Virus record (IMG/VR): IMGVR_UViG_3300009074_000029
Span: 1 to 25,127 of that record
DNA from: a virus
Strand: one strand, 5' to 3'
DNA: 25,127 nucleotides
This document shows, one piece after another, positions 3,300 through 24,071 of this stretch. Both the position numbers and the translations under genes were made by a program. Within the stretch, counting starts at the first letter, position 1. Each line of letters begins with the position of its first letter. The notes beneath the pieces were generated by a model that did no database searches, had not been told where the DNA came from, and saw only the letters and a program-made list of their open reading frames with translations.

Positions 3300-3314
3300 T
3301 GGTATCTATCCCGT

Positions 3315-3933: not shown

Positions 3934-3970
3934 CAGTTCTAAATCATCATTCAACTGTGTGTCAACTTTA

Positions 3971-4933: not shown

Positions 4934-4989
4934 TCTCTTCTCCATTATGCGCGGAGTATTTTGAGTGGGGCGAGCAAGTCCACTGTAGG

Positions 4990-4997
4990 TATTTATA
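4990..4997 (-). promoter_or_regulatory. T4-type late promoter motif upstream of queD
   Basis: The minus strand reads TATAAATA, the exact T4 late-promoter consensus recognised by the gp55 sigma factor. It lies 57 bases before the queD ATG in one of the longer spacers of the window and overlaps the stop codon of the preceding small gene. I found no other exact copy here. Confidence 0.6.
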
Positions 4998-5163: not shown

Positions 5164-5372
5164 CTTAATCCTGCCTCAATCTCTCTTTTAACGTTATAGA
5201 TGTTAATCCACCAAAGGCACCATGCAGCAAGTATATACCATATGCCGCTTCCGCCACTTAGGAAAAGCATAAAACCTGCGGAGCCTAAATCGGAACAGAC
5301 ATAAATTGTTAGCCAATCCCAAAAGGTGAAGCCGTCGTAAAAACGCTTAGGTTCTTGTGGTGAGGAGCTCAT
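5160..5372 (-). CDS. Small membrane protein, two transmembrane segments
   Basis: A 70-residue, Trp-rich protein beginning [15 protein letters not shown]. Two hydrophobic spans are visible: [19 protein letters not shown] (residues ~17-35) and [16 protein letters not shown] (~41-56), followed by a charged tail ([11 protein letters not shown]), so it probably sits in the inner membrane with both ends inside. The start at 5372 overlaps the clpP end by 26 bases; a GTG at 5405 would lengthen the overlap to 59 bases. It could be a lysis, exclusion or envelope-modifying protein, but nothing in the sequence decides this. Confidence 0.7.
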
Positions 5373-5967: not shown

Positions 5968-6299
5968 GTCTTTATTCCTTTTCGTTTTATGTTCATTTTT
6001 TCTCTTACATCGTTTTGCGTTGGTCCAACTTGATCAAACGCAAGTTTAGCCATAACAAGATCTTCATCATGTTTAAAGGTTAACACAGCCCAGGCAAAGC
6101 TATGAATACTTTCTGCCCAACCCGAAAAGGCATCTTCAATGATATATCGCTCTGGTGTGACACCTATATCGTATAATACATTGTGCACTTCAGGGCTAGT
6201 AAACGGTCCAGACCAGGACTCGCGGCCCACAGTGATTGACTTATCAAAGAACAAACTCACTATGTTATTATTTGGATGTGCCTCAATCAGTACCAGCAT
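5964..6299 (-). CDS. Small protein of the 'MxKL' family, member 3
   Basis: A 111-residue unknown protein. The N-terminus ([20 protein letters not shown]) begins with a beta-like strand, the middle includes [20 protein letters not shown], and the family motif [19 protein letters not shown] lies at about residues 69-87. Unlike its siblings it continues for 23 more residues with a basic tail ([13 protein letters not shown]). It is directly upstream of clpP with an ATGA overlap, and overlaps its own upstream sibling by 17 bases. Function unknown. Confidence 0.75.
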
Positions 6300-6651
6300 G
6301 ATTCATTGCCTTGTTTATGTTGTTAACATAGTCTTCGACCATTTGGCGGAAATCGCTTCCAGCATATATTAGTTTGGCATACGTGTAAGCTTCTAATGTA
6401 TTAAAGGTGAACACAGTATGGTTCCGGCTACTTTCAGTAACATTAAAATCGCCGGAAACTTGAAAACGCAACATTGATTCAGCATTTTTACTAAAGATAG
6501 TTCGGTATCCTAATCGGACTGGAGTAAGCAGCCGCCCGTTATTTTCGCTGGCATGCCAGAAGCTAGCATGCCAGACTTTCATATCACAACAAGGTCCAGC
6601 CATCGAAAATCTCACCTCTACTCCGCCGTCAGTGGTTGATGGCGTCATCAT
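6283..6651 (-). CDS. Small protein of the 'MxKL' family, member 4
   Basis: A 122-residue unknown protein. It contains WHAS-F-WHAS at about residues 27-35, made by a 15-base tandem duplication in the DNA, and a Cys pair (GPCCDMKV). The family motif HTVFTFNTLEAYTYAKLIYAG lies at about residues 78-98, with Tyr where siblings have Met. A helical tail follows (FRQMVEDYVNNINKAM). Its ATG overlaps the exonuclease stop as ATGA. No catalytic signature is visible. Confidence 0.74.
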   Translation of the reverse strand: MMTPSTTDGGVEVRFSMAGPCCDMKVWHASFWHASENNGRLLTPVRLGYRTIFSKNAESMLRFQVSGDFNVTESSRNHTVFTFNTLEAYTYAKLIYAGSDFRQMVEDYVNNINKAMNHAGTD

Positions 6652-7181
6652 TTCTTCATATTAAAGTGCTTGAACACTTTGCGCAGTGCATTGGCCTGTG
6701 CTTTTGCATCCTCTAGAGCATGGTGCTCTAGATAGCTTTCATCTTTGCGCAAATCGTAAGGCATACGCTTGAGGAATTGACGGCTGTCACCAACGTCCCA
6801 ATGTGGCCACGGAACAGGCTCGCCCATTTGATTGTACATATGTTCCATGATAGTTGTGTCCATAAAGCCCTGTTGCCAGATACCATTACAGCCAACATAC
6901 CATTTCTTAAGAGCGCGAAGCATAGTGCGGACATCTACACGATCATCGTCACTAAATGCTTCGTTCTGTGCCGCAGCGGTTTGTCGGCCCCACCAAGTTA
7001 GTGTGCCATCATCAATTACTCTGCCAAGCTTGTCTTGCTCTTCAATGTCCACACGCATATATAATTCACTATGCATTGGTGCTTCATTGAAGGGATCAAA
7101 CTTTATGCAGCCAATTGTTAGGACTTGCGCATCAGGCGAAGTCGCCATCGTCTCCAAGTCTATCATACCCCATGTTGTCAT
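6648..7181 (-). CDS. DEDDh 3'-5' exonuclease (DexA/Rv2179c-like)
   Basis: A 177-residue RNase H-fold exonuclease. The four acidic residues and the catalytic His are in the right order: MIDLETMA (Asp8, Glu10), GFMDTT (Asp108) and EHHALEDAKAQA (His153, Asp158). The block DDGTLTWWGRQ near residues 57-67 is typical of the T4 DexA and Rv2179c-like exoribonuclease group. T4 DexA degrades single-stranded DNA; the mycobacterial relative acts on RNA, so the substrate is open. It is the first gene behind a sigma70-like promoter and is followed without a gap by 'MxKL' family genes. Confidence 0.9.
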   Translation of the reverse strand: MTTWGMIDLETMATSPDAQVLTIGCIKFDPFNEAPMHSELYMRVDIEEQDKLGRVIDDGTLTWWGRQTAAAQNEAFSDDDRVDVRTMLRALKKWYVGCNGIWQQGFMDTTIMEHMYNQMGEPVPWPHWDVGDSRQFLKRMPYDLRKDESYLEHHALEDAKAQANALRKVFKHFNMKK

Positions 7182-7198
7182 TATATTTCCTTTGTATT

Positions 7199-7227
7199 AC
7201 ATTACACTATTTGCAGTGCAGTGTCAA
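7199..7227 (-). promoter_or_regulatory. Sigma70-like promoter for the exonuclease gene
   Basis: Minus strand TTGACA, 17 bases, TAATGT, with AAGGAA before the ATG at 7181. It begins in the short gap after the upstream gene. The -10 box is a weaker match than in other promoters of the window. Confidence 0.72.
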
Positions 7228-7234
7228 GTAAGTA

Positions 7235-7609
7235 TTAGGACTCATCTGTTTCAAGCCCCCAGCTTAGTTTTGCCATAACAAATGTTTCATCGTCATTGAA
7301 TGTGATAATGATACTGTCCTTCCAAAACTCAATCCCATTATCATAAGAAGGGTAATTCCAGCCTGGTATATGATAATCCACACCTCGTTCATAGCCTTTA
7401 TCTTTCATAAATTCTACAATTTGTTCTTCTGCCATGAGCCGGGTGTGTGGTTTGAAATGAAAAAAGAACTCCATAGCGCCATGCTTATATGGTCTACCAT
7501 TTGGCCACGTGTCGCGAAAGGCAGTCTTTTTGGTGTTTATGTTTCCTGTATCTGTTATTCGCCTTTTCACTGACGCACCTCCGACCATTAACACTTTTTG
7601 TTTACCCAT
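7235..7609 (-). CDS. Small protein of the 'MxKL' family, member 5
   Basis: A 124-residue unknown protein with one of the clearest copies of the family motif: SIIITFNDDETFVMAKLSWG at about residues 98-117. The N-terminus is basic (KRRITDTGNINTKK); the middle includes MEFFFHFKPHTRLMAEEQIV and EFMKDKGYERGVDYHIPGW, suggesting an alternating strand-helix-strand fold like small ferredoxin-type domains, though this is only a guess. Its ATG overlaps the previous sibling's stop by eight bases (7602-7609). Confidence 0.77.
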   Translation of the reverse strand: MGKQKVLMVGGASVKRRITDTGNINTKKTAFRDTWPNGRPYKHGAMEFFFHFKPHTRLMAEEQIVEFMKDKGYERGVDYHIPGWNYPSYDNGIEFWKDSIIITFNDDETFVMAKLSWGLETDES

Positions 7610-7910
7610 GTAAAAGTTTCACCATTATAAATTCTTCATCATCATTAAAATTGATGCGGAATGCGCATTGCTTACAGTCAAAGTCCATTGTGAGATTTTG
7701 AGAATTAATATTCCACTTATCACGTAACTCCACATGCACCAATTTAGCAAACTGTAGTTCCTGCAGTTCCGAAAATTTCTTAGGTCCGATATTCGGAAGC
7801 GCGTTACAGCTAGCATACATATGTGGACCATCAATCCAGATTACAGGTTGAAATCGAACTGGTGTCGATTTACTAAACCTCTTTTGTCGCCGAGAACCAC
7901 TGTTAGCCAT
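7602..7910 (-). CDS. Small protein of the 'MxKL' family, member 6
   Basis: A 102-residue unknown protein ending in CAFRINFNDDEEFIMVKLLHG, nearly the same C-terminal motif as the next gene. The N-terminus is basic (SRRQKRFSKSTPVRF). The central part (FSELQELQFAKLVHVELRDK) has helix-strand character, and a lone Cys pair occurs (CKQC near residues 79-82). It overlaps the topoisomerase gp52 gene by eight bases at its start and its sibling by eight at its end. No known family. Confidence 0.77.
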   Translation of the reverse strand: MANSGSRRQKRFSKSTPVRFQPVIWIDGPHMYASCNALPNIGPKKFSELQELQFAKLVHVELRDKWNINSQNLTMDFDCKQCAFRINFNDDEEFIMVKLLHG

Positions 7911-9225
7911 CTAATGCATCCAAGTCTTCTATATACTGTGAATTTGGTGTCGCTTTCTTCCAATATACAAGTGTCTTCTTTGCCTCAACAATTTCCTTGC
8001 GCAGTGCTACAACTTGCTCTTTAGTAAGGCTCATAAAGTTGAGTGCAAGCAAACGGCTGATGTCTGTATCTAGTGCAGTTGAATTTTTCAACACCTGCTC
8101 ACCAACTTGCTTGCGCGACTGGTTCTTGAACAGGATTTTGTCATCCAATACACCTTCAATGAACTCAATCTTGACTTTTAGCCAACGCAAGAGTTCAACG
8201 TTCAGTTTAATTGCAAGATCAATACGCTTTTGCAACACACCTAGGCGGAAGTCAACAAAGTCACGGATAAGGTCACGCGGGTCGTCATACTCGCGCAGTA
8301 CATCGTCAGGACCAATTACGTTGAGGTTTTCACTGTGGTTCTTAGCCAGCTTAAACTTGCGAAGGATCTCAGCGTCTTTCCATTTGGCTGACGTATTTTG
8401 CTTTAGAATGACCTCAAAGCGGAAGCCTCGGCTATCGGTTTGATCATCATAGCTAACAATCATACCATCATCTTCCAAGTCATCCAGGACTTTAATGTAG
8501 CTTTCACGATCATAGCCGTACGGGATTTCTTCGATGAACAGTTTTGTCTTGCCTGCCTTACGGAAAGTACCTGTACAAACATATCTGTCTGCTACACTGT
8601 CATAATGTGTAGTGCCACGGAAGTCTGGAAACTTGATGTTAATTTCACGACGCGGGGTCTTGCCTTCTAACAATGTGCGGATGTATGCTTTAATATCAGC
8701 TTCATCACGCGGTAGAATGTTTGTCGCAAAGCCTGTCGCAATGCCTGACGCGCCGTTGAGTAGTACAAGGGGCAACACTGGCAAGTAGAAAGCTGGTGGA
8801 GAAATCTCTGGATCCTCATGCTCAGGACTGAGGTCAATATCCTTGATGTATTTGTCGAAGTTTGAGCTTACTTTGGTGTAAACATAACGGGACGCACCAG
8901 CAGCTTGGACCTGACGTGTGCCAAAGCTACCACGTCCTTCTACAAGGCAGATGTTATTGCGCCATGTTGCAGCCATAAGCTGACCAGCACCAGCAGCACT
9001 TACTTCGCCGTGATTGTAACCGTAGTCACTCACGACACCAGAGACGGCACTGACCTTCTTAAAGTCACGCCGTGAGTTTTGCAGACTGGAATAGAGATAG
9101 AAACGTTGCACTGGCTTCATGCCGTCAATCATGTTAGGGATTGCTCGGCTGGCTACAGTGTATTGTGCGAAGTCCAACATTTCATTTAGTGCGACTTCGC
9201 TTAGTTTATATTGTTTATTTGTCAC
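7903..9225 (-). CDS. 52: DNA topoisomerase II medium subunit (T4 gp52-like)
   Basis: A 440-residue type IIA topoisomerase breakage-reunion subunit. The active-site region is QVQAAGASRYVYTKVS, with the DNA-linking Tyr at residue 114 following the conserved Arg. VASRAIPNMIDGMKPVQR at about 24-41 and LPLVLLNGASGIATGFATNI near 160 are standard GyrA/ParC/gp52 landmarks. Length matches T4 gp52 (about 440), lacking the C-terminal beta-pinwheel of GyrA. With the large subunit it relaxes supercoils ahead of phage forks. The start is a GTG at 9225 directly after the previous TAA, with GGAAGGG upstream. Confidence 0.96.
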   Translation of the reverse strand: MTNKQYKLSEVALNEMLDFAQYTVASRAIPNMIDGMKPVQRFYLYSSLQNSRRDFKKVSAVSGVVSDYGYNHGEVSAAGAGQLMAATWRNNICLVEGRGSFGTRQVQAAGASRYVYTKVSSNFDKYIKDIDLSPEHEDPEISPPAFYLPVLPLVLLNGASGIATGFATNILPRDEADIKAYIRTLLEGKTPRREINIKFPDFRGTTHYDSVADRYVCTGTFRKAGKTKLFIEEIPYGYDRESYIKVLDDLEDDGMIVSYDDQTDSRGFRFEVILKQNTSAKWKDAEILRKFKLAKNHSENLNVIGPDDVLREYDDPRDLIRDFVDFRLGVLQKRIDLAIKLNVELLRWLKVKIEFIEGVLDDKILFKNQSRKQVGEQVLKNSTALDTDISRLLALNFMSLTKEQVVALRKEIVEAKKTLVYWKKATPNSQYIEDLDALDG

Positions 9226-9444
9226 TTAGTTTTTTACCCTTCCGGTAATGCCTTGCAGCTTGCGAATCTTGGTGTGCGCAATGTCTTTTACCGCATCATA
9301 TACTTCGTTAAATTCTTTGTTGTAGATAAAAGCAACCATCCCCACATCATTTTCATCTGGGTGAGCAAACATGTTGCCCATGTAATTATGGAAATAGGCT
9401 TCTCCGGCATGAAATACAGCTTGTTTGTATGTTTTCGATCGCAT
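9226..9444 (-). CDS. Small hypothetical protein (72 aa)
   Basis: A 72-residue unknown protein, starting at ATG 9444 (MRSKTYKQAVFHAGEAY), which has GGAAG seven bases upstream; a TTG twelve bases earlier is less likely. The middle HNYMGNMFAHPDENDVGMVA is followed by an amphipathic helix (FNEVYDAVKDIAHTKIRKL). It is abutted by the gp52 GTG on one side and lies one base after the stop of the upstream gene. Its position suggests a replication operon, nothing more. Confidence 0.7.
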   Translation of the reverse strand: MRSKTYKQAVFHAGEAYFHNYMGNMFAHPDENDVGMVAFIYNKEFNEVYDAVKDIAHTKIRKLQGITGRVKN

Positions 9445-9445
9445 G

Positions 9446-9637
9446 TCAGCTTCCAATTATTACTAATTCAGGATACCTGTCTTTCAGATCATTACGGTAT
9501 TGATCAGCATCAATCCAAGTACCGTTAGCATCACGGACGACCCAATGGTCATTGTGCGGCATTTTGCTGAGTGGATTAATAGTGTGCCACTCGCGCTGCG
9601 CAGTTAGCACTCTGGGGGGCATTTCACTAAACATCAT
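9446..9637 (-). CDS. Small hypothetical protein (63 aa)
   Basis: A 63-residue unknown protein. HNDHWVVRDANGTWIDADQY near residues 28-47 reads as a beta hairpin, and the end YPELVIIGS is a hydrophobic strand. The ATG at 9637 overlaps the upstream TGA by four bases; a second ATG follows at once, so the first residue is uncertain by one codon. Unknown family. Confidence 0.66.
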   Translation of the reverse strand: MMFSEMPPRVLTAQREWHTINPLSKMPHNDHWVVRDANGTWIDADQYRNDLKDRYPELVIIGS

Positions 9638-9918
9638 GACAGGTCCTCTGCAAGCAGGTAAGTGTTGCCTTCCTGCTCTGCCTTTTCCCAGGCTTCGAAC
9701 ATGAAGAAGTCTTCGCGGGGAGCAGCGTAGTAAGTGATGCCCTTCTCCGCAGTGAACTCGCGGAAGATAGCAATACCTTCATCGCTATATTGCTCAACGT
9801 CACCAAACAGGGCTTTGCCTGCGGCACCGTAAGAAAGCTGGTAACCGTCCAGCAACTTGACTGTGCCGTGCATATTGACAACAAGCGCCTCGAGATTAAT
9901 GTGATCAAAACGTGACAT
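9634..9918 (-). CDS. Hypothetical protein (94 aa)
   Basis: A 94-residue acidic protein of unknown function. It starts MSRFDHINLEALVVNMHGTV and contains LSYGAAGKALFGDVEQYSDE and YYAAPREDFFMFEAWEKAE. Its GC content appears somewhat higher than that of the nearby small genes. Its start overlaps the upstream TAA by one base (TAATG at 9918) and its stop overlaps the next ATG. I see no catalytic or binding motif. Confidence 0.7.
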   Translation of the reverse strand: MSRFDHINLEALVVNMHGTVKLLDGYQLSYGAAGKALFGDVEQYSDEGIAIFREFTAEKGITYYAAPREDFFMFEAWEKAEQEGNTYLLAEDLS

Positions 9919-10136
9919 TATACTTCCTCTCCAACTGCGCGGCGGTCGCGTACATCGCTAACACCCCATGCTCTTCGTGCGATGCTTGGGCAAGTGCAAT
10001 GCAGAATATCGACTACAGCACCTGTTTTGGTTTCGCGTAGCAATGCCAGTACAGGATACAGTTTGCTTACGCGGCCGTTTGCCTCGTCAATTTCGCTATC
10101 ACAGTGATTTTGGATTTCAATGTAGTGCGTTGACAT
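9918..10136 (-). CDS. Small hypothetical protein (72 aa)
   Basis: A 72-residue unknown protein and first gene behind one of the shared-module promoters. Residues about 26-43 (YPVLALLRETKTGAVVDI) look like two beta strands, followed by LHCTCPSIARRAWG, which has two closely spaced cysteines, and a basic, charged end (DVRDRRAVGEEV). The CxC could bind metal but lacks the second pair usually seen in zinc knuckles. It leads the short run 10136-7903 that ends with topoisomerase gp52. Confidence 0.72.
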   Translation of the reverse strand: MSTHYIEIQNHCDSEIDEANGRVSKLYPVLALLRETKTGAVVDILHCTCPSIARRAWGVSDVRDRRAVGEEV

Positions 10137-10164
10137 GTTTTATTTCCTCTTTGCTTACAATACC

Positions 10165-10193
10165 AATATAAAGCAAAGTGCCATGCTTGTCAA
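10165..10193 (-). promoter_or_regulatory. Shared-module sigma70-like promoter (gene at 10136)
   Basis: Minus strand TTGACA, 17 bases, TATATT. An inverted repeat, CTTTGCTT then TAAGCAAAG (arms 10171-10178 and 10149-10157), straddles the -10 box. The right arm runs straight into the ribosome site AAAGAGG. Confidence 0.86.
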
Positions 10194-10196
10194 GCC

Positions 10197-10379
10197 TTAT
10201 CCACTAATATATGGACCTTTTTTGGGTCTGTACCATATTTTCTGGTGGTGGATATGTGCTAACAATGCAGCTATCTTGCGCTTCTCTGCATCGTCTGCCG
10301 TTGCTAACTGTGCATTTAATGCAGCTTCAATCAAAGCAATGTCGTGCATATCTAAGTCAAACTTACGATTGTAACCCAT
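10197..10379 (-). CDS. Small hypothetical protein (60 aa), cyanophage-like
   Basis: A 60-residue protein starting MGYNRKFDLDMHDIALIEAA, followed by a helix (LNAQLATADDAEKRKIAALL) and ending HHQKIWYRPKKGPYISG. The opening 'YNRxFDLDxxDIxLIE' and the 'HxQKxWYRPK' ending are features I recall in small conserved proteins of cyanophage T4-likes. ATG 10379 overlaps the upstream TAA by one base (TAATG), which decides the start; a longer form in the same frame would run deep into the upstream gene. Function unknown. Confidence 0.76.
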   Translation of the reverse strand: MGYNRKFDLDMHDIALIEAALNAQLATADDAEKRKIAALLAHIHHQKIWYRPKKGPYISG

Positions 10380-10540
10380 TACTTGTATGCTTGTTGTCTC
10401 TGTGCTTGTTCTTCCCAATAGCTATCAGGCTGGCGTTGGGCAGTACGGAGGATGGGATCATATTTGGTGATCTTGTCTTCTACTAGGTATTCATATCGTG
10501 CAAGTGTGGCTTTCTTGATTGTGGATGCTTCAGGGCTCAT
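10379..10540 (-). CDS. Small hypothetical protein (53 aa)
   Basis: A 53-residue protein starting MSPEASTIKKATLARYEYLV and ending in a Gln/Arg-rich segment (YWEEQAQRQQAYK). The ATG at 10540 overlaps the topoisomerase large-subunit stop as ATGA, which I used to choose this start over longer in-frame alternatives that would lie inside the topoisomerase gene. It is translationally coupled to the topoisomerase; no function can be assigned. Confidence 0.7.
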   Translation of the reverse strand: MSPEASTIKKATLARYEYLVEDKITKYDPILRTAQRQPDSYWEEQAQRQQAYK

Positions 10541-12393
10541 TTGATCATTTCCGGTGTTTCTGCTTTCAACCATTGTTTCCGCGGTTCCGAATCTTTCCCG
10601 AACATTACTGTGAACCATTTTTCATTATCAATTTCGATAACGTCAAAGCGCGGCTGGTTGATAATGACATCGTATTCTTTTTCAGTCAAGGACGCAAGTC
10701 CCTTGATGTAACGGTGATGCCAACCCGTGTTCTTGTTCTTGAACTCACGTGCCTCGTTATAGCTGTAGAACCACTTAAGGTCCTTGCCTTTGGTAGAGAT
10801 CATGATAGGAGTTCGAGTAATAGCAATGCGACCTTCTGTAAACAGACGCGGCCAAAACTTGTAGAAGAAAGATAACAACAGCCCGCTAATGTGATTTCCA
10901 TCGTGATCAGCATCAGCAAGTGTTGCTACCTTTTCATAGTCCATGTTATCAATACTGTCGGGGTCATTTATGTCGAGACCCAACACTGCGACGAGCTCGC
11001 TCAGCTCTTTGTTCTTGAGAACGTCTGCAGGCTTTTTATCGAATGTATTCATAACGACGCCGCGGAGCGGAAAACCACCAACTACCTTAGGATCACGAAC
11101 TTTGAGCAAGAAGCCCATAGCTGAGTCACCCTCGCAAAGGAACAGTGTGCTTTGTTTCGTGCTTGCTGCAACGTGCTTCTGTACCTTTACGCGGCGAAGT
11201 TTTTTCTGAGCGAGTGTAGCAGCCCGCTTGTCCGCGGCAGCCTTCCGAGCTACCTGAGCCTCGACAATAGGCTCGATGATGTCATCACATGCCATTACTT
11301 TCTTAGCAATTTGCTCGAATGTCAATGGGTCTGACGACTCATAGTGTCGACGTACATCGCTCTGTGAGCTTGTCAGCCGTTCTTTTGTCTGTGCGTCATA
11401 CTGTGGGTTCATGAAGTTACGGGCAAAGAGAACAAAGGTCAGCCCGCTCTTGATAGTGCTACGGCTAACTTCAACCTTATATTTGCGTTTAATCATACGC
11501 ACCATATCGTCAGTAACGCCGTTGATTACATAGTCGTTATACGCACCACCAAGTCGTGTGTTCACGCCGTTGATATAACCGTTTTGGCGGAAGCCGTCCT
11601 TGCTGTGGGCAATAATGAATACAACATCGTCACGTGACATAGTAACACTGCTACCATCTTCACCAGCATAGAGTTTGCTGTATTGTGTAACGTTGCGAGC
11701 TTTGACTAGCTTACCGTTCAGTTTGAATTTGATCTCAGGGAAAGCAATCTGCAAACTGTTAAGGCGATCATGAATAAGGTCATAATGATCACCTTCATCT
11801 AGATTTTTGACGCCCAATAGGCTGAAGTCAGGTCTAAAACTTACTTGCGTTCCAGAATCGTGTGTCGTCCTTTTTACTTCTTCAACTTGAGTAAAGTTAG
11901 CACCGTGTGTGCACGTCACGCGAACCTGTTGGCCCTTACTCCATGTCTCACCAATAAATTCAACACTCATAAAGTTTACACAAGCAGCGCCAACACCATT
12001 TGCGCCAATAGTAACGCGGTCATCGTCAAAGCTAGTGCCCGCACGAACTCTCGTCCATGCTGCCACAGGACGTATAAGCTTTTCGCCTGTTTCTGTGTCT
12101 GTGATTTCATCAAGTGGAATGCCTCGACCATTGTCGGTAACTGTGACTCGATTTTTCTGTACATTTACACTAACCTCGTTTGCGTATTTGAATTGAGTAC
12201 GGATGGCTTCGTCGATACTGTTGTCCAGTATTTCATCGACCATTTTAAGCAGCGCAGGAACATAGCTGACGGTTTTCCATTCGCCTAGCACAAACCGCGC
12301 CACATCTTCTTTGGCAGTGCTGCCAAGATACATGCCCGTGCGCTTTCTTACATGCTCACGGGCACTCATAATCTGAAATTCTTCTTTAGACAT
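10537..12393 (-). CDS. 39: DNA topoisomerase II large (ATPase) subunit, gp39/gp60 in one gene
   Basis: A 618-residue GyrB/gp39-type subunit. The GHKL ATPase domain shows EILDNSIDEA (~54-63), VTDNGRGIP (~85-93), GANGVGAACVNFMS (~130-143) and the QTK switch lysine near 337. The TOPRIM domain shows LCEGDSAMG (~419-427) and the metal-binding DADHDG (~494-499). In T4 this protein is split between genes 39 and 60, with a translational bypass in 60; here both parts form one continuous frame. With gp52 it makes the phage topoisomerase. It follows its own promoter. Confidence 0.96.
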   Translation of the reverse strand: MSKEEFQIMSAREHVRKRTGMYLGSTAKEDVARFVLGEWKTVSYVPALLKMVDEILDNSIDEAIRTQFKYANEVSVNVQKNRVTVTDNGRGIPLDEITDTETGEKLIRPVAAWTRVRAGTSFDDDRVTIGANGVGAACVNFMSVEFIGETWSKGQQVRVTCTHGANFTQVEEVKRTTHDSGTQVSFRPDFSLLGVKNLDEGDHYDLIHDRLNSLQIAFPEIKFKLNGKLVKARNVTQYSKLYAGEDGSSVTMSRDDVVFIIAHSKDGFRQNGYINGVNTRLGGAYNDYVINGVTDDMVRMIKRKYKVEVSRSTIKSGLTFVLFARNFMNPQYDAQTKERLTSSQSDVRRHYESSDPLTFEQIAKKVMACDDIIEPIVEAQVARKAAADKRAATLAQKKLRRVKVQKHVAASTKQSTLFLCEGDSAMGFLLKVRDPKVVGGFPLRGVVMNTFDKKPADVLKNKELSELVAVLGLDINDPDSIDNMDYEKVATLADADHDGNHISGLLLSFFYKFWPRLFTEGRIAITRTPIMISTKGKDLKWFYSYNEAREFKNKNTGWHHRYIKGLASLTEKEYDVIINQPRFDVIEIDNEKWFTVMFGKDSEPRKQWLKAETPEMIK

Positions 12394-12419
12394 TGTGATC
12401 CCAGTTTTTGTTATTCTTA

Positions 12420-12448
12420 CTTATACGGCATACAAGGAGAAATGTCAA
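12420..12448 (-). promoter_or_regulatory. Sigma70-like promoter for the topoisomerase large subunit
   Basis: Minus strand TTGACA, 17 bases, TATAAG, 27 bases before the ATG. The TGA stop codon of the upstream gene is part of the TTGACA box. The shared inverted repeat is absent here. Confidence 0.85.
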
Positions 12449-12750
12449 TACCCAGGCTCACTATAATTTCGATCTTTGCGATACGTTGCAAAGCCCGCGA
12501 AGCCAAAGCTTGGGCAAATCATAATATATTCAGGCAACCCAACATCATCTTTTTCACCACCTTCACCAGTAATGAAATAGGCGCCAGTTTCTTCAGCACG
12601 TTCATGGACAATAGCTGTTTTAACTTTGTTAAGTATCACTGCAACCTGTAGACAATCTTCATGGGAGGCGACACTAAGGTCCGCACCCATTGCTTCAGCG
12701 AGTTGTGTATACCTACGCTGGAGATCTTCATAGCTAAGTTTATTTTCCAT
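12445..12750 (-). CDS. Hypothetical protein (101 aa)
   Basis: A 101-residue unknown protein. The first 55 residues are helical (LSYEDLQRRYTQLAEAMGAD, then CLQVAVILNKVKTAIVHERA). The second half is Gly- and aromatic-rich (TGAYFITGEGGEKDD, then IMICPSFGFAGFATYRKD). It has no signal peptide and no motif I can name. Its stop codon forms part of the -35 box of the next promoter, so transcription of the topoisomerase restarts right at its end. Confidence 0.72.
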   Translation of the reverse strand: MENKLSYEDLQRRYTQLAEAMGADLSVASHEDCLQVAVILNKVKTAIVHERAEETGAYFITGEGGEKDDVGLPEYIMICPSFGFAGFATYRKDRNYSEPGY

Positions 12751-13084
12751 TATTTTTTACCTCTTCATCTACAGTTGTTATTATTTGTTCTGCGCGATCT
12801 TTTGTCGCTTCTTCAACTAGTTCATCTAAACGATATTCTTCTGGGACAGTTTGTTCCATACTAATAACACCGCTTATACGATACCATTTGCCTTTTACTT
12901 CGATAGCACATACGTCTGGATCGAAACACACAATTTGTGGTTCACTATTGAAAGCTTGGTTAACAATGGTATTGGCGTCTTTGACTTCAAGTGCAACAAA
13001 GATAGAAACGGCAGTGGGTATGATCATTAGTGCTAACATAATAGACTTGCCTAGTGCTTGCGTTGTGAGTGATTGATTATCCAT
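12740..13084 (-). CDS. Single-pass membrane-anchored hypothetical protein
   Basis: A 114-residue protein with one N-terminal transmembrane segment, GKSIMLALMIIPTAVSIFVAL at about residues 11-31, preceded by a short polar stretch (MDNQSLTTQAL). The rest is probably periplasmic: PQIVCFDPDVCAIEVKGKWY contains a Cys pair that could form a disulfide, and the C-terminus is an acidic helix (RLDELVEEATKDRAEQI). I chose ATG 13084, giving an eight-base overlap with the upstream gene. Possible roles are envelope modification or exclusion; undetermined. Confidence 0.74.
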   Translation of the reverse strand: MDNQSLTTQALGKSIMLALMIIPTAVSIFVALEVKDANTIVNQAFNSEPQIVCFDPDVCAIEVKGKWYRISGVISMEQTVPEEYRLDELVEEATKDRAEQIITTVDEEVKNNGK

Positions 13085-13394
13085 TATCCAAATTCTGACA
13101 CAATTTAAGAGCAACCTCAAGTTGTCCTAGTGCATCTTCTACTAGTGGATATTTATCTGCTAAATCATTGATTCGTGATCGCCCCCTAAGCATGTCAAGG
13201 ACACGGTCAATAGCTTCCTCTGCATCCGGCGTCATGAACGGCTGATGGTCTCCAAATTCAATCCAGGTGTCACCATCATATACCACGAGACACTGCAACC
13301 CACTATCAAACCAAACAGTTCCACTCTGCGCGTTGTCAGGCGGATTACAGTTATTGATGTACCGTCGATGTGGAGAATAGATATATTTACTCAT
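13077..13394 (-). CDS. Hypothetical protein, possible small structural-type domain
   Basis: A 105-residue unknown protein. Its first half, NPPDNAQSGTVWFDSGLQCL followed by VVYDGDTWIEFGD, resembles the short 'GxxWFDxxxxxLxVYxGxxW' beta unit often found in phage tail-fibre and baseplate-associated proteins. The second half is helical (TPDAEEAIDRVLDMLRG and VEDALGQLEVALKLCQ). Its start overlaps the metallophosphoesterase stop as ATGA, and its end overlaps the membrane-protein gene. A structural link is a guess from the motif. Confidence 0.72.
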   Translation of the reverse strand: MSKYIYSPHRRYINNCNPPDNAQSGTVWFDSGLQCLVVYDGDTWIEFGDHQPFMTPDAEEAIDRVLDMLRGRSRINDLADKYPLVEDALGQLEVALKLCQNLDNG

Positions 13395-14041
13395 ACATCT
13401 ATTACCACAGTGTCAAGTTCGCCAATGCATTGAAACATGGTACGCCCATATTTGTGCTGCATAGTCGTATGCCAATGACCAAAATACCATTCGTCAGGTT
13501 GATGAATGTCCATTAGTGTGTCAAAAAACTGACCTGTCTTTGTTGGGTAGTGTATACCTCTGAGTAAGCCACTATCAAAGAACATTTCTTTCGACACTGT
13601 CCAAGGACAATCATGTGTGACCATTACACGCGGGCGCATAACATCATATATTTCAGCAAACCGATAAAACTCCGCAGTAGAACATTCTTCATCAGCCCAC
13701 CAATCAACCTCAGGTGTACGCCGATACCAGCCTGGAGGAGCGTCAGGATTATCAATACTCCAGGCGCCGCCAATAAACATCACATCGTTTTCGATAGTGC
13801 CATCAGCAATATACCCAACCATGTCGTTTTTACACTTTGAGGGCTTGTCGTGGTTACCACGGATAAAGCGGTGACGTCCGTCAGCATGAAATTCATTTAC
13901 ACGGTCATGCCAGTAGTCACCATAAAAGCCGATGCCAAAATCACCAATTTGTACAGTTGGGCCGTCAAAATCAGCAATAGAATGTGTCTGGTAATCATCC
14001 AACTTTCCGTGAATGTCGCCGATGAGTAGTAATTTATTCAT
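13391..14041 (-). CDS. Calcineurin-like metallophosphoesterase
   Basis: A 216-residue binuclear-metal phosphoesterase with all five family blocks: GDIHG (Asp9, His11), GDFG (Asp34), GNHD (Asn63, His64), VTHD (His143) and GHWH (His189, His191). Members hydrolyse phosphomonoesters or diesters, including nucleotides, diadenosine polyphosphates, RNA ends or cyclic nucleotides, so the substrate is not set by the fold. The next gene upstream is a 2H phosphodiesterase, and this pairing suggests a nucleotide-signal or RNA-end role. It is cytoplasmic, with no signal peptide. Confidence 0.92.
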   Translation of the reverse strand: MNKLLLIGDIHGKLDDYQTHSIADFDGPTVQIGDFGIGFYGDYWHDRVNEFHADGRHRFIRGNHDKPSKCKNDMVGYIADGTIENDVMFIGGAWSIDNPDAPPGWYRRTPEVDWWADEECSTAEFYRFAEIYDVMRPRVMVTHDCPWTVSKEMFFDSGLLRGIHYPTKTGQFFDTLMDIHQPDEWYFGHWHTTMQHKYGRTMFQCIGELDTVVIDV

Positions 14042-14045
14042 TTTG

Positions 14046-14528
14046 TTATTTTTTCTGATTTTTGATGTGAAGTTTATCTACTATGATCATATCACCATCC
14101 GGAAGGTCTACTTGGGGTAGATCGTTATCCGTGTAAAGATATGATAGAGTGATGTGGGGGCGGAAGTCTGGCCATTCGTCTTCAAGGCCATACTGTTCAC
14201 CAATGGTGGATCGGATAGATCTAATTTGTTCACTGTCAATCTCCAACACTAGAGTGTTTTGCTGGTCACCAAACAAAGCAAAGCCTTTTGGCGTAATGTC
14301 GTCAACAGTTACGGCTGTTGTGCCATTACTTATCACGGCTTCATTTGAAGTAGACCAAACAGTGCTATGAAAGTCAAAAGCCATAATAGGCTGTGGCCTT
14401 CCATTGAACCGTATACTAAGATCAAATCCGTTGTCAATGCAGTAGCGACGCAAATAGTCCTGCGTCTCTTCGTCATACTGCACTTCAATATATTTTTTCA
14501 CGGCTGGTGTGATTTGTGCTTCTCTCAT
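14046..14528 (-). CDS. 2H phosphoesterase, candidate Acb1-like anti-CBASS protein
   Basis: A 160-residue protein with two H-x-T motifs, FHSTVW (His54, Thr56) and PHITLSY (His125, Thr127), the signature of 2H phosphodiesterases. Size and the 71-residue spacing resemble T4 gp57B/Acb1, which I recall as about 152 residues with the two motifs about 69 apart and which cleaves the cyclic nucleotide signals of CBASS immunity. The other reading is a 2',3'-cyclic phosphodiesterase or tRNA-repair enzyme, plausible because RNA-repair genes lie upstream. The 2H fold is well supported; the Acb1 role is inference. Confidence 0.8.
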   Translation of the reverse strand: MREAQITPAVKKYIEVQYDEETQDYLRRYCIDNGFDLSIRFNGRPQPIMAFDFHSTVWSTSNEAVISNGTTAVTVDDITPKGFALFGDQQNTLVLEIDSEQIRSIRSTIGEQYGLEDEWPDFRPHITLSYLYTDNDLPQVDLPDGDMIIVDKLHIKNQKK

Positions 14529-14539
14529 TATTTCTTCTT

Positions 14540-15022
14540 CTATGGGTGTAGCTTGAATTGGCGCAGGTAATCTAGCACCTCAGCTGGTGCGTCAAGCGGT
14601 ACAAATACATAACCGCCTGTTAGTTCCTTCGCAGTGTAAAAGTCACCCTGCCAGTTTGTAAACGGGTAAGTTGGGTCAACAACTGTGTTAGCTTGTAGCT
14701 TGAATTCGTCGCGCATTGTTGCAACTGTTTCGATGATTTCAGCTTTAGTCAGTGCAAGTGCAATCTTTGTACCAAACCCACCGCCGCCTTGCTGTCTCCA
14801 CCCATTCATAAGATTTTGCAATCCTGTCATACTTTTTGGGGAGCCAACCGACTTGGCAATATCAAGCACATCAAAAACAAACTGTGTTGCAGCATGTCCG
14901 CCATGCGCCCAACCCTTGCCAGGATTCATCTGATAGATGTCAGTACGGGCAAGCAGGTACAACCGGCTGCCTTGATGCATGAGTGGAAAAGCTGGATCGC
15001 GTTCTTGTGTAATTACAGTCAT
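14540..15022 (-). CDS. Peptidyl-tRNA hydrolase 2 (Pth2)-like protein
   Basis: A 160-residue protein with the Pth2 layout. LYLLARTDIYQMNPGKG then WAHGGHAATQFVF (residues ~21-50) matches the family's 'vRxDLxMGKGKxAAQxxHA', including Lys36 and His43 at the family spacing. KIALALTKAEIIETVATM (~86-103) and NTVVDPTYP (~112-120) match the central strand-helix and the Asp of 'DAGxT'. The ending VFVPLDAPAEVLDYLRQFKL fits 'xxIGPxxxxxxDxxTGxLKL'. Pth2 frees tRNA from stalled peptidyl-tRNA. It is divergent, with an insertion near residues 55-80. It follows its own promoter. Confidence 0.75.
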   Translation of the reverse strand: MTVITQERDPAFPLMHQGSRLYLLARTDIYQMNPGKGWAHGGHAATQFVFDVLDIAKSVGSPKSMTGLQNLMNGWRQQGGGGFGTKIALALTKAEIIETVATMRDEFKLQANTVVDPTYPFTNWQGDFYTAKELTGGYVFVPLDAPAEVLDYLRQFKLHP

Positions 15023-15047
15023 CTGTTTACCTTTTCGTTACACAACC

Positions 15048-15076
15048 AATGTAACATGGTCCTTAGTACGTGTCAA
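15048..15076 (-). promoter_or_regulatory. Sigma70-like promoter for the Pth2-like gene
   Basis: Minus strand TTGACA, 17 bases, TACATT. A different inverted repeat, GTTAC...GTAAC, covers the -10 box at about the position used by the shared module in other promoters. Confidence 0.8.
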
Positions 15077-17119: not shown

Positions 17120-17148
17120 AGTATAAGCGAAGTGTCTTGCTTTGTCAA
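17120..17148 (-). promoter_or_regulatory. Shared-module sigma70-like promoter (gene at 17094)
   Basis: Minus strand TTGACA, 17 bases, TATACT. The inverted repeat CTTCGCTTA / TAAGCAAAG (17124-17132 and 17104-17112) flanks the start region, and AAAGGAG follows as ribosome site. The TGA stop of the RNA ligase gene is inside the TTGACA box. Confidence 0.9.
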
Positions 17149-18344
17149 CTGTTTTCTTCGTCATCTTCGTTAAGGCCCAGCCAGTGAGCCAATTCGTTAT
17201 ACTTGGCAGTATTGCCAAGTCCTTTGCGAACTCGACCCATTACAAGTTCATAGAAGTCATCTATGCCGTCTGCATACCTAAACACAATCGGCCAATCATC
17301 CCTAGCAATGTAGGACTTAGGCAAAATCTTAGTAGCCAATTCCTTCTTGTTAAAGTTAGCAGCAAGCCAAGCATCACGTGCCTTGAATTCAATGTCAACA
17401 ACCTTGCGGTGTAACGCAACATGGAAGTCAGCTTCATACTTCTTAATACGGTTAAAGTCGTTCTCATCCAAGTGTGGATAGACGTCGTCCAAATCGTTCT
17501 CTAACAAGAGAGCAAGAACGTGGCGGTCGCTACGGATCTTGTCCTTTACCTTGTGGATACGCACATACCAGTCGTTCTTGATCTTGAGCATGTGTCCATC
17601 AGCAAAGCGGATGATGTCGCCTTCACGACCTTCCTTACCACGCTGCCGTGCAATATAGTCCTCAAACGAACCATCAACTGCACCGTAAGAAGGCACACGA
17701 GTAAGGCTAGCAGGAGTTGAATTCTGTTCGACCAAATAGTTGCCCGATTCGTTGTGACGAATTGCAAGCAACACAAGGTCTGGATCGTTGTATTCAATAA
17801 CAATCCGATTGTCTGGTGCAATGAATTCAAACAGTGGAGTTACCCCCATCTTGACTGCACCTTCCATCCACACAGACAACTCCGCCCAGTCTGGACGAGT
17901 GTGCAAATAATTCTCAGCAGCTATTGAAGTGTCAGTAACGCCCATTTTGGTTCCAAGCCGAAGCTTGCCATTTACCATCATCGGACGAATCATGCTGCCG
18001 TCCATCTTTTCCACAATCGCGTGATCACGCGACATGTCAATGTTGTGCAACAGAGTTTCCTCACGCTCGCCAACATTGAAGAACTTGTGGAACGGGCGCG
18101 ACATAATACGACCATCTGGATAGAAGATAAGTCCACGGCACTCACGACGCATAAGACCCTTGGGAATGAAGAACCCGTGGTTCTTCATCGTCTCCTGGAC
18201 GTCAATCGTGAAAGTGTCCTCGTAACCAACATTGTAGTTGACTACTTTGAAGCCATCGCGCTCTGCAACGACAAACTCGTCGCGGCCTTCGATAGCTGGC
18301 AACACATCATCAATGTGATGAATTATTGGAAAGTCATAGTGCAT
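17145..18344 (-). CDS. rnlA: RNA ligase (T4 Rnl1-like)
   Basis: A 399-residue ATP-dependent RNA ligase of the T4 Rnl1 family; T4 Rnl1 has 374 residues. The adenylated lysine is Lys113 in VEKMDGSMIR (T4 KEDGS). FHKFFNVGE (~85-93), LFEFIAPDNRIVIEY (motif IV, roughly 185-200) and MLKIKNDWYVRIHK (motif V) follow in order. A family-typical C-terminal helical domain completes it. T4 Rnl1 reseals tRNA cut by the host anticodon nuclease PrrC. ATG 18344, one base after the preceding stop, gives the natural N-terminus; a longer in-frame form runs into the upstream gene. Confidence 0.95.
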   Translation of the reverse strand: MHYDFPIIHHIDDVLPAIEGRDEFVVAERDGFKVVNYNVGYEDTFTIDVQETMKNHGFFIPKGLMRRECRGLIFYPDGRIMSRPFHKFFNVGEREETLLHNIDMSRDHAIVEKMDGSMIRPMMVNGKLRLGTKMGVTDTSIAAENYLHTRPDWAELSVWMEGAVKMGVTPLFEFIAPDNRIVIEYNDPDLVLLAIRHNESGNYLVEQNSTPASLTRVPSYGAVDGSFEDYIARQRGKEGREGDIIRFADGHMLKIKNDWYVRIHKVKDKIRSDRHVLALLLENDLDDVYPHLDENDFNRIKKYEADFHVALHRKVVDIEFKARDAWLAANFNKKELATKILPKSYIARDDWPIVFRYADGIDDFYELVMGRVRKGLGNTAKYNELAHWLGLNEDDEENS

Positions 18345-18345
18345 A

Positions 18346-18534
18346 TTAGAACTTCTCCACTTCACCATTAGGACCGCGCATTTCCAGTATCACAAAAGGC
18401 ACCTTTGTGCTCATTGTGCACTTACCAGCCCAGTCACAAGCATCGTTCCAGTTAACAAAACGCATAGTTTCAGTAACCGTTACACCAGCAGCAACAAGGG
18501 GTGCTAGCAAAAACTTTTCAAATTCGACTACCAT
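18346..18534 (-). CDS. Small hypothetical protein (62 aa)
   Basis: A 62-residue unknown protein. MVVEFEKFLLAPLVAAGVTV is followed by NWNDACDWAGKCTMSTKVPF and a beta-like end (VILEMRGPNGEVEKF). The two Cys (DACDWAGKC) are six residues apart with no second pair, so zinc binding is not supported. It is seven bases overlapped with the upstream gene and one base from the RNA ligase start, so it is co-translated with the ligase. Confidence 0.7.
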   Translation of the reverse strand: MVVEFEKFLLAPLVAAGVTVTETMRFVNWNDACDWAGKCTMSTKVPFVILEMRGPNGEVEKF

Positions 18535-18736: not shown

Positions 18737-18764
18737 AGTATAGCAAAGTGTCTTGGTATGTCAA
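18737..18764 (-). promoter_or_regulatory. Shared-module sigma70-like promoter (gene at 18710)
   Basis: Minus strand TTGACA, 16 bases, TATACT. The inverted repeat is perfect here (CTTTGCT / AGCAAAG, 18742-18748 and 18721-18727), with nested TACT/AGTA. The TGA stop of the metalloprotease-like gene lies in the TTGACA box. Confidence 0.88.
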
Positions 18765-20316: not shown

Positions 20317-20345
20317 AGTATAAGCGAAGCGTTATGGGTTGTCAA
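20317..20345 (-). promoter_or_regulatory. Shared-module sigma70-like promoter (gene at 20291)
   Basis: Minus strand TTGACA, 17 bases, TATACT, with inverted repeat CTTCGCTTA / TAAGCAAAG (20321-20329 and 20301-20309) and AAAGGAG after it. Its -35 box is inside the last codons of the lipoprotein gene. Confidence 0.88.
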
Positions 20346-21704: not shown

Positions 21705-23048
21705 TTAGCCTCCTACAGCCATTGCCATGTCTTTAGTTTCAAAGATGCGCTCCAGCGTGTCTGTGTCAGTCTTGTCGTCGCGTAGTTCCACAAAACGCGG
21801 GTGGCTTAGTGCATAATACTCGTTGCTGCGGCCACGTGTAATGTCGCTGCATGTTACAGTCATTACTTGCCCCATCAGTTCGTCGCGCCGTGCATCCATG
21901 TCATCCAGTTCAGCATCAGTAAACCCACTTGCAAAGCCTTTAACGTTGCCGTCATCTGTTGCAAACTCAATGCTACCAATTTTACCTTCGCGCTTTGTGC
22001 CAACTGTACCGGGCTTAAACCCTGTAATGCGCACATCAGCATCAATCTCTAGCTTGAGCTTTAGTTGCTGTGGGCTTGTGCCGTCGCGGAAGATAGCGTT
22101 ATGGTCTTTCCAAATAGCACCTTCGAGCCCTTGCTCCATCCATGCGGCGCAGTGTTGCAACGCTTCGGCAACAGTGTAGACGATGTGTGTTTCAATAACG
22201 CGAATATATGGGCAGTCTTCACCAATGTAGTCAACAAGTGTTTCGAAACGTCGGTGGTATGGTGTGGTGCCTTTGATTTTGTTTGCAGCGTTGGTGTATT
22301 CTTCCAGCGTTACATAGTCCCAAAGATCTAGCACAATCTCAGCGCCCGCAGGCAAGTCCATGCTTTTGATAAGTCCGTTACCTGTTGCACGATCACAAAT
22401 TGTTCCGTCTGCAAGGCGCACTGTCAATTCACCGATATAATGTCCATCTTCTAGATATTTAAGATGCGCATTAATCAACGGATAATCGTAGCTTTCACCG
22501 CTGCGGCTGTTGCAAATAACTTCATTGTTTTCAACTGTAAACTCGCGGTAAGTGCCGTCAGCCTTCAACTGCACAAAGCTATCTTCAGGATTAATTTTGC
22601 CCCGCGTCTTTTCGCTGAACAACCCGCAACGCATGTAGACGGGCTTGACAATGAGCCCTTTAAACACTTTGTTGATGTTGCTACGGCCCATGTTAATCCG
22701 CAGGTCACGAGTGAGAACTTTGGCTACAATATCTCTGTTATCGTCACTCAGATTCCAAAGAACGTCGTCCAACATGTAAAGCGCATCATTGCCTGTTGTG
22801 TTGCGATTCGCAAACTCTTTTTCCAGGACAGTCAATGCCCATTCCAAATCACCAGTAGGATTAGGATTTGATGGTCTAAGTGTGACATTCTTCATCGTAA
22901 TGCCATATGTGAACGCAACCTTGTCATATGTCATCTTGAGAACACGCTGCAACAATTCATTGTCGGCGTGTTTGCGCAGCACGTCCATTTTGTAGTTGCT
23001 GCCATTTTCCAAGTTCAGTTCTTGTATAATAAGATGAATCGGGGTCAC
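21705..23048 (-). CDS. 30: ATP-dependent DNA ligase (T4 gp30-like)
   Basis: A 447-residue ligase. The adenylated Lys162 is in VQLKADGTYREF (T4 QLKADG, Lys159). Then come NSRSGESYDYPL (motif Ia region), HYIGELTVRLADG (motif III), QGLEGAIWKD (motif IV) and LKLKLEIDADVRITGF (motif V, leading into the OB domain), ending with SHPRFVELRDDKTDTD. The N-terminal ~130 residues are helical, as in the T4 enzyme's DNA-binding domain. It seals nicks in replication and repair. The start is GTG at 23048, with AAAGGAAAA upstream, and it is first after a shared-module promoter. Confidence 0.96.
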   Translation of the reverse strand: MTPIHLIIQELNLENGSNYKMDVLRKHADNELLQRVLKMTYDKVAFTYGITMKNVTLRPSNPNPTGDLEWALTVLEKEFANRNTTGNDALYMLDDVLWNLSDDNRDIVAKVLTRDLRINMGRSNINKVFKGLIVKPVYMRCGLFSEKTRGKINPEDSFVQLKADGTYREFTVENNEVICNSRSGESYDYPLINAHLKYLEDGHYIGELTVRLADGTICDRATGNGLIKSMDLPAGAEIVLDLWDYVTLEEYTNAANKIKGTTPYHRRFETLVDYIGEDCPYIRVIETHIVYTVAEALQHCAAWMEQGLEGAIWKDHNAIFRDGTSPQQLKLKLEIDADVRITGFKPGTVGTKREGKIGSIEFATDDGNVKGFASGFTDAELDDMDARRDELMGQVMTVTCSDITRGRSNEYYALSHPRFVELRDDKTDTDTLERIFETKDMAMAVGG

Positions 23049-23074: not shown

Positions 23075-23103
23075 ACTATAAGCGAAGTGTCTTGGTTTGT
23101 CAA
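23075..23103 (-). promoter_or_regulatory. Shared-module sigma70-like promoter for DNA ligase
   Basis: Minus strand TTGACA, 17 bases, TATAGT, with inverted repeat CTTCGCTTA / TAAGCAAAA (23079-23087 and 23059-23067), then AAAGGAAAA. It sits just after the cytochrome c' gene. Confidence 0.9.
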
Positions 23104-23125: not shown

Positions 23126-23569
23126 TTAATTGCTGATGCGATAATCTTTGTGACAAGCTAAACAGGCAGGGCCTATAATGCGCATTGCAGCCATTGTTTC
23201 CTCAGAAGATGAAACGCTAATGTCATTTAGAACAGTGGCCATTTCTGCAGCCCGTTGAGCAAACCCTTCACGGTCGTCCCAAATAGCCGGGCTTGCTTCT
23301 GACTTTGGATCGTTTGCCTGCGTTTCAAACAACGCCACAATGCGATCAGTTTCTGCTTGAAGAGCTGCAAGTGCTGTGGTGGCGGAAGTTTCGTCAAATG
23401 CCACTTCGCCTTTTGCCATTTGACCAAGTGTCTTTAGCTCGCTAGCCATTGTCATCATGCCTGCCATCCGCGCTTTGACATGCGGGTCATTAACGTCTGT
23501 GTGGGCAATCGCCACTGTTGCGGCTGTTGCAAATAATGCAACGAGTATTGTCTTATCGAGTAGCATCAT
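23126..23569 (-). CDS. Cytochrome c' (c-prime) with signal peptide
   Basis: A 147-residue class II c-type cytochrome. Residues 1-22 are a Sec signal peptide (KTILVALFATAATVAIA then cleavage near AIA-H). The mature part is a four-helix bundle: KARMAGMMTMASELKTLGQM, ALAALQAETDRIVALFE, the SEASPAIW loop, FAQRAAEMATVLNDI. The single heme site is CLACHKDYR at the C-terminus (Cys136, Cys139, His140), where cytochromes c' carry it. These periplasmic proteins bind NO or CO and protect against nitrosative stress or carry electrons. Heme attachment would need the host Ccm system. It is highly unusual in a phage. Confidence 0.9.
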   Translation of the reverse strand: MMLLDKTILVALFATAATVAIAHTDVNDPHVKARMAGMMTMASELKTLGQMAKGEVAFDETSATTALAALQAETDRIVALFETQANDPKSEASPAIWDDREGFAQRAAEMATVLNDISVSSSEETMAAMRIIGPACLACHKDYRISN

Positions 23570-23731
23570 CTATTGTTGTTCCTTGCTGCTATACATAGTC
23601 AATCCATTTTTATTTAGTTCCCACTCAGTAATAGCTAGAACATAATTGTATCCAGGATAGTCATTTGCTTTGTGCCAGTATTCGACTTCCTTACGGACTT
23701 TTTCAACATAGAGTTTTTCTGCGAGTATCAT
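23570..23731 (-). CDS. Small hypothetical protein (53 aa)
   Basis: A 53-residue protein starting at ATG 23731 (MILAEKLYVEKVRKEVEYWH), which overlaps the upstream TGA by four bases (ATGA). A helix is followed by YPGYNYVLAITEWELNKNGL, likely a strand and turn. Its stop is directly followed by the cytochrome c' ATG, so the two are translated together; whether they work together is unknown. Confidence 0.7.
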   Translation of the reverse strand: MILAEKLYVEKVRKEVEYWHKANDYPGYNYVLAITEWELNKNGLTMYSSKEQQ

Positions 23732-24018
23732 TTGCCAATATCCTCTGACCACCTATGGGTGTATCGTTTTAGGCGCTTATGATTAGGCGGATAATGCTGC
23801 ACACCAATATCAGTAAGGGCAGAGCACGAAATACATTTCATTGTCACCGCAGGGTCAATATGTACCTTAGAATCTGAATGACTGCCTGGATAGTATCGCA
23901 AATCTTCTCGATTAACTTCAAGAAGTGCGCCACAGCCGGTGTGGTTGTTACCAAAACCTGTGCAGTATATTTCTACACTCCAGTTTTCGTTACATGGCGC
24001 GGGCTTAATAATTTTCAT
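23728..24018 (-). CDS. Zinc-ribbon-like protein, phage-conserved type
   Basis: A 96-residue protein with four cysteines in a zinc-ribbon-like pattern: CTGFGNNHTGCGALLEV at about residues 19-35 and MKCISCSALTDIG near 60-72. Between them is LRYYPGSHSDSKVHIDP. The 'CTGxGNxxxGCGAxLEV...CxxC' arrangement is one I recall in unnamed phage proteins. It would bind zinc; the partner is unknown. The start is ATG 24018, chosen because GGAG lies seven bases upstream; an ATG twelve bases earlier overlaps that site. It is the first gene after its promoter. Confidence 0.78.
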   Translation of the reverse strand: MKIIKPAPCNENWSVEIYCTGFGNNHTGCGALLEVNREDLRYYPGSHSDSKVHIDPAVTMKCISCSALTDIGVQHYPPNHKRLKRYTHRWSEDIGK

Positions 24019-24042
24019 ATTGAACTCCATTGTTACACTTTT

Positions 24043-24071
24043 ATTATAGCCGATAGTGACTGATTAGTCAA
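24043..24071 (-). promoter_or_regulatory. Sigma70-like promoter for the zinc-ribbon/cytochrome c' cluster
   Basis: Minus strand TTGACT, 17 bases, TATAAT, 24 bases before the start codon chosen. The -35 box overlaps the stop codon of the upstream gene. The shared inverted repeat is not present. Confidence 0.85.

Follow-up and report, generated by a model that had tools for sequence, protein, structure and literature searches.

Background

Through photosynthesis genes, phages take over the electron transport of cyanobacteria; to our knowledge, comparable soluble carriers have hardly been described in phages of heterotrophic marine bacteria. The ccoP and SoxD products carry heme c. Respiratory auxiliary genes reported on virome contigs include ccoP, soxCD, cydAB, norB and cbb3 oxidase subunits (PMC12713726; cbb3 oxidase in PMC3474794). 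These genes likewise represent phage-encoded electron transport, but they belong to other protein families than the gene described here and none of them encodes a soluble class II cytochrome. The class II cytochromes of bacteria include the cytochromes c', in which a distal Leu or Phe does not coordinate the iron and leaves a five-coordinate heme which binds NO and CO, and c-556 of Rhodopseudomonas palustris, in which a Met is the distal heme ligand.

The gene under study lies at positions 23126..23569 on the minus strand of a 25,127-nucleotide stretch of viral DNA (IMG/VR record IMGVR_UViG_3300009074_000029, positions 1 to 25,127), which is called the window below. Its 147-aa product was assigned to the class II cytochromes c as a c-556-like member of PF01322, based on the family profile, an AF2 model and matches in the PDB. 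Like the phage protein, the c-556 of R. palustris (1s05; about 27% identity, VIA Z 15.7 across 121 residues) is a four-helix bundle with a C-terminal CxxCH and with Met where the alignment puts the distal residue, but it is the product of a bacterial (cellular) gene and Thr replaces the equivalent of Arg34. The cytochromes c' of R. sphaeroides (1gqa), R. palustris (1a7v) and Alcaligenes (1e83) share PF01322 and the fold (Z 14.4-17.1) but have Leu or Phe as the distal residue and fall into a separate clade. The Met-type class II cytochromes of Rhodobacterales (Maritimibacter, Pseudooceanicola, Primorskyibacter, Marivivens) have at most 46% identity to the phage protein and a common style of signal peptide, Met, Trp and CxxCH residues with it; unlike the phage gene they are cellular, have high GC and are mostly found in multicopper-oxidase or AdhC neighbourhoods.

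Sequence and predicted structure of the gene product

A preliminary description of this DNA had placed the open reading frame at exactly these coordinates, with no strand given, and had read from it a Sec signal peptide, a four-helix class II cytochrome pattern and a C-terminal CLACH heme site followed by KDYR. All of these features were borne out. The N-terminus, MMLLDKTILVALFATAATVAIA followed by HTD, is positively charged, then hydrophobic, and ends in an AxA-type site, and a Sec signal peptide was predicted at residues 1-22 (23504..23569, minus strand) with cleavage after AIA and before HTD, on the basis of the sequence and its homologues. The homologues have signal peptides of a common style and a mature start of the form AH(x)2V in the alignment, and A22 is nearly invariant among the 68 aligned sequences. 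The mature part is helical and the C-terminus is CLACHKDYRISN. The CLACH heme c attachment motif, in which His140 is the predicted proximal ligand, occupies residues 136-140 (23150..23164, minus strand) and is followed by KDYR; C136, C139 and H140 are invariant in the 68 aligned homologues and R144 is nearly invariant.

The cytochrome c' family profile PF01322, proposed earlier as a check, matched the phage protein with 83.4 bits (E 3.2e-23; curated cut-off 26.5 bits) over profile positions 3-121 of 121, and cytochromes c' and c-556 ranked first in a phmmer search of the PDB. AF2 modelling from the 68-sequence alignment, which contained 67 bacterial homologues, gave a four-helix bundle without heme at a mean pLDDT of 90.8 (helices at residues 29-52, 60-75/77-80, 100-116 and 122-143), and this model superseded one made from the phage sequence by itself (pLDDT 53). 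Comparison of the model with known structures by Foldseek and VIA-align returned 1gqa, 1s05 and 1a7v (best Z 17.1, 1a7v), with unrelated helical structures beginning at about Z 12, below the cytochrome matches; the best Foldseek match was the R. sphaeroides cytochrome c'. Profile and model together confirmed, at a strength far above chance, that the phage protein is a member of the class II cytochrome c family with predicted heme binding.

Heme pocket and type of cytochrome

The codon of Met38 (23456..23458, minus strand) specifies the predicted sixth (distal) heme ligand, as judged by alignment with c-556 1s05, where Met12 is the equivalent residue. Solved cytochromes c' carry Leu or Phe at this position, the aligned residue being Leu16 in the Alcaligenes cytochrome c' and Phe in the Rhodobacter cytochromes c' (two reference sequences of this alignment were checked against the PDB). 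Met was present in 80 of 83 aligned sequences and was nearly invariant in the 68-sequence alignment.

Twelve Rhodobacterales genomes were examined and contained one to three PF01322 genes each. In a tree with these paralogues, a 100/100 branch parted the phage protein from the Phe/Leu-type cytochromes c', some of which come from the same bacterial genomes as the homologues with which it was compared. The Phe-type clade was made up of Phe-type genes of Rhodobacterales together with the cytochromes c' of R. sphaeroides and Alcaligenes. Some Met-bearing Rhodobacterales proteins also fell beyond this branch, with the cytochromes c', so the distal residue and the clade are overlapping yet separate arguments, and a distal Met predicts ligation strongly but not with certainty. 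The phage protein neither has the distal Leu or Phe of a cytochrome c' nor groups with the Phe/Leu-type cytochromes c', and its helix A does supply, as in c-556, a Met at the site of the distal ligand. Of the initial identification as cytochrome c', the PF01322 superfamily was supported and the c' type proper was not.

Two roles had been put forward at the outset, protection of the infected cell from NO and the tuning of electron flow. A true five-coordinate cytochrome c' which binds NO (or CO) in the periplasm and shields the infected cell from NO would have PF01322 and the fold in common with the phage protein, and both the best Foldseek match and the conserved Arg after CxxCH are in keeping with it. 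However, Met38 occupies the site at which solved NO-binding cytochromes c' carry Leu or Phe, as it does in c-556, the Phe/Leu-type cytochromes c' lie across the 100/100 branch, and no NO-related gene was seen beside the phage cytochrome. We consider this explanation unlikely, and NO detoxification was ruled out as the main reading by Met38 and the tree position. These same two observations favour a low-spin electron carrier with a six-coordinate heme over an NO trap, as far as the sequence can be read, and the tuning of electron flow appears the better of the two earlier roles.

Location within a phage genome

The preliminary description had also placed the gene inside a phage genome. This was supported, and a join between phage and host DNA refuted, by a second IMG/VR contig, 3300009426_000008 (G001, 49,969 bp). 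All of the window recurs in this contig (99.9% identity, 24 mismatches and 0 gaps over 25,127 bases), where the cytochrome gene is flanked by phage genes on either side and its product is 100% identical to that of the window. Beyond the window G001 carries large structural or tail-fibre-like ORFs. The T4-type genes of the window include an ATP-dependent DNA ligase (T4 gp30 type; 21705..23048, minus strand; PHROG 114, E 2.4e-97), which is the downstream neighbour of the cytochrome, an RNA ligase/tail fibre attachment catalyst (T4 Rnl1 type; 17145..18368, minus strand; PHROG 562, E 2.2e-69), both subunits of topoisomerase II (the large one of T4 gp39 type; 10537..12393, minus strand; PHROG 543, E 3.3e-202), a clamp loader, an exonuclease and an ORF resembling DNA primase. 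The window contained no tRNA and no Rfam match. The phage ligase and topoisomerase were closest to those of Vibrio T4-like phages at about 50% identity, and we therefore assign the phage to a lineage to which nothing in the searched collection is closely related. A related phage was found in IMG/VR record IMGVR_UViG_3300009026_001128 (17,143 bp), with a topoisomerase II which is 88% identical; this contig is collinear with window positions 2119-15060 and stops before the cytochrome site.

The GC3 of the cytochrome gene was 0.41, equal to the phage mean of 0.41 (sd 0.06), and the mean GC3 of 23 Rhodobacterales homologues was 0.76. As the two contigs agree and the GC3 is phage-like, we take the cytochrome to be a long-resident phage gene and no host fragment. 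An assembly chimera or cellular contamination could be suspected because each of the two records comes from a metagenome and covers an incomplete genome, but the gap-free agreement of the contigs, the flanking phage genes and the phage-like GC3 make such an origin extremely improbable; the second contig and the GC3 in particular ruled it out. The locus is a host-type metabolic gene within a bona fide phage genome, with T4-type neighbours in two contigs, as is expected of an auxiliary metabolic gene.

Putative operon and sigma-70-like promoters

The DNA ligase on one side of the cytochrome gene had been recognized earlier, together with a zinc-ribbon gene on the other side. The ligase was confirmed; the other side begins with a short phage ORF of 60 aa (23570..23752, minus strand), directly upstream of the cytochrome and with a stop codon which abuts the cytochrome ATG, and a 100-aa ORF with Cys-pair (zinc-ribbon-like) motifs follows (23728..24030, minus strand). 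Neither ORF had a Pfam or PHROG match, so for the 100-aa ORF the term zinc ribbon describes Cys spacing only. The cytochrome is the last gene of this tightly packed putative three-gene operon, in which the Cys-pair ORF is the first, and an AAGGA Shine-Dalgarno-like site was located 10 nt before its ATG (23580..23584, minus strand).

A sigma-70-like promoter, TTGACT-17-TATAAT (24043..24071, minus strand; 11/12 consensus matches), precedes the operon. Another, TTGACA-17-TATAGT (23075..23103, minus strand; 11/12 consensus matches), lies between cytochrome and ligase, so the ligase probably opens a new unit. Seven such near-consensus promoters were found on the coding strand of the window, as compared with 0-1 in shuffled sequences, the remaining five being at 10165-10193, 12420-12448, 17120-17148, 18737-18764 and 20317-20345 (all minus strand). 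Several of the seven precede a conserved leader like GTAAGCAAAGGAG, right before the start codon. The T4-type late promoter TATAAATA occurred at one site in the window, which is chance level, away from the cytochrome gene. Since the operon sits behind a sigma-70-like promoter, early expression is likely, and the polymerase which would transcribe it early is likely that of the host.

Bacterial relatives and probable host

The best bacterial relatives of the phage cytochrome were all from Rhodobacterales, with identities up to 46%, and a homologue was present in 82 of 100 genomes sampled from one Rhodobacterales family (best 46% identity). When paralogues were left out of the tree, the phage protein was placed within a Rhodobacterales group associated with multicopper oxidases (support 96/91). 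A multicopper oxidase match was found within 3 kb in 13 of the 15 bacterial loci of this group, and 14 of the 15 had either a multicopper oxidase or the cytochrome c of the operon; some loci had two class I cytochromes c and one had CueR. The sister Rhodobacterales group adjoins AdhC (glutathione-dependent formaldehyde dehydrogenase) and did not form one clade in the tree with paralogues. Once paralogues were added the same placement of the phage protein had a support of only 30/30, and its firm assignment to the copper-operon group was given up. The Rhodobacterales Met-type class II cytochromes examined (loci L020-L051) divide by neighbourhood into those in a multicopper-oxidase/CueR/cytochrome c operon and those next to AdhC.

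These loci bear on a narrower form of the electron-carrier reading, in which the phage protein would be a copper-handling cytochrome, a partner of a CopA/CueO-like multicopper oxidase of the host, for the oxidation or tolerance of periplasmic Cu(I) during infection. The 13 loci with a multicopper oxidase, the one with CueR and the 96/91 placement speak for such a role. The fall to 30/30 speaks against it, no multicopper oxidase or copper regulator was recognised in the 50 kb of the phage, and the context is not fixed, since the sister group adjoins AdhC. We judge this narrower role to be rather unlikely.

On sequence grounds, the ancestry of the phage cytochrome was shown to lie among the Rhodobacterales Met-type class II cytochromes. 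A phylogeny against bacterial cytochromes c' had been called for; it gave Rhodobacterales Met-type proteins as nearest kin, and the grouping with cytochromes c' themselves was not obtained. Similarity of a second redox protein provides independent support for a Rhodobacterales host. G001 encodes, outside the window, an FdxA ferredoxin of 7Fe type (L013:19092-19427; NF045490, 162 bits, cut-off 135) which is 80% identical to that of Pseudorhodobacter turbinis. Its six best matches in a plasmid collection were all from Rhodobacterales (Pseudorhodobacter, Paracoccus, Salipiger), and only five matches, of at most 54% identity, were found among 50,697 phage records. The host is probably a member of Rhodobacterales, which supports and narrows the proteobacterial host suggested earlier by means of both the nearest kin of the cytochrome and FdxA.

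Occurrence in other phages

With the phage cytochrome protein as query, tblastn found no match in the 50,697 phage records, and with a homologue as query it gave one weak match, MW462191.1, which was left out of the viral count because the region looks bacterial. This record is labelled Bacteriophage sp., and the region concerned (82470-88793) carries AmpR/AmpC, Tet(X4), SsuA and a diheme cytochrome, with two cytochromes in all. Pattern scans of IMG/VR with three alignments returned nothing besides the sister contig G001; such scans depend on short conserved peptides and may miss distant copies. No class II cytochrome was present in 71 related phage contigs, many of them longer than 100 kb, and a BFVD fold search with the phage cytochrome gave no match at E 0.001 or better. 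In the open-licence PMC literature we found no paper on a phage class II cytochrome. Within the phage-record, IMG/VR, related-contig and BFVD searches, the rarity that had been claimed for phage cytochromes was supported. A PHROGs family of unknown function, phrog_31311, did match the phage cytochrome (E 2.5e-9) and matched bacterial class II cytochromes with E-values up to 4e-14, but it is annotated without a cytochrome name. It is evidently a class II cytochrome family, which means that unnamed phage or prophage copies have already been clustered. The gene adds to the electron-transport auxiliary genes of phages a family which, as far as the open literature shows, had not been described in them. 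G001 also encodes a 114-aa protein with a CYSCH motif and without a signal peptide (L013:16111-16455), for which no Pfam, NCBIfam or PHROG match was found.

The presence of the cytochrome in one phage lineage only, in the searches run, and the ordinary nature of the nearest bacterial copies would be consistent with a neutral or non-functional passenger, a captured host gene of no use to the phage. Yet the frame is intact, all heme-binding residues have been kept despite an identity of at most about 46% to bacterial copies, the phage-like GC3 indicates long residence, the protein is 100% identical in two contigs and the gene is coupled into a promoter-driven operon. We regard a passenger as highly improbable.

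Proposed role and significance

From sequence comparison and modelling, it is fairly probable that a T4-like marine phage, whose host is probably a member of Rhodobacterales, carries the gene as an auxiliary metabolic gene for a periplasmic c-556-type class II cytochrome c. The host sigma-70 polymerase would transcribe the operon early in infection, Sec would export the cytochrome to the periplasm and the Ccm machinery of the host would attach heme to CLACH. Ligation of the iron by His140 and Met38 would create a low-spin center, and the cytochrome could then shuttle electrons among periplasmic donors and acceptors such as c-type cytochromes, terminal oxidases or a multicopper oxidase. In this way it may sustain host respiration or periplasmic redox balance during the shut-off of host gene expression.

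The phage also encodes an A-type Fe-S carrier (SufA/ErpA-like, TIGR00049; window 2635-2982, minus strand) and, near it, a SufT/MIP18-type Fe-S assembly protein (PF01883, with TIGR02945 below its cut-off; window 3315-3680, minus strand). The presence of FdxA and these two Fe-S assembly proteins alongside the cytochrome suggests redox maintenance as a theme of this phage. We offer more tentatively the wider idea, possible but rather doubtful, that a lytic T4-like phage rewires the periplasmic respiratory chain of Rhodobacterales early in infection, with its own soluble low-spin cytochrome c, FdxA and Fe-S assembly factors forming a coordinated redox module that acts on either face of the inner membrane.

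For annotation, a PF01322 match by itself is insufficient to name an NO-binding cytochrome c'. The type of heme pocket in this protein suggests that the phage controls the electron flow of its host, in place of protecting it from NO. Rhodobacterales are genetically tractable, which makes the role of respiration in infection directly testable. A phage cytochrome which depends on export and on the Ccm system of the host for its maturation would show that phages invest in periplasmic respiration.
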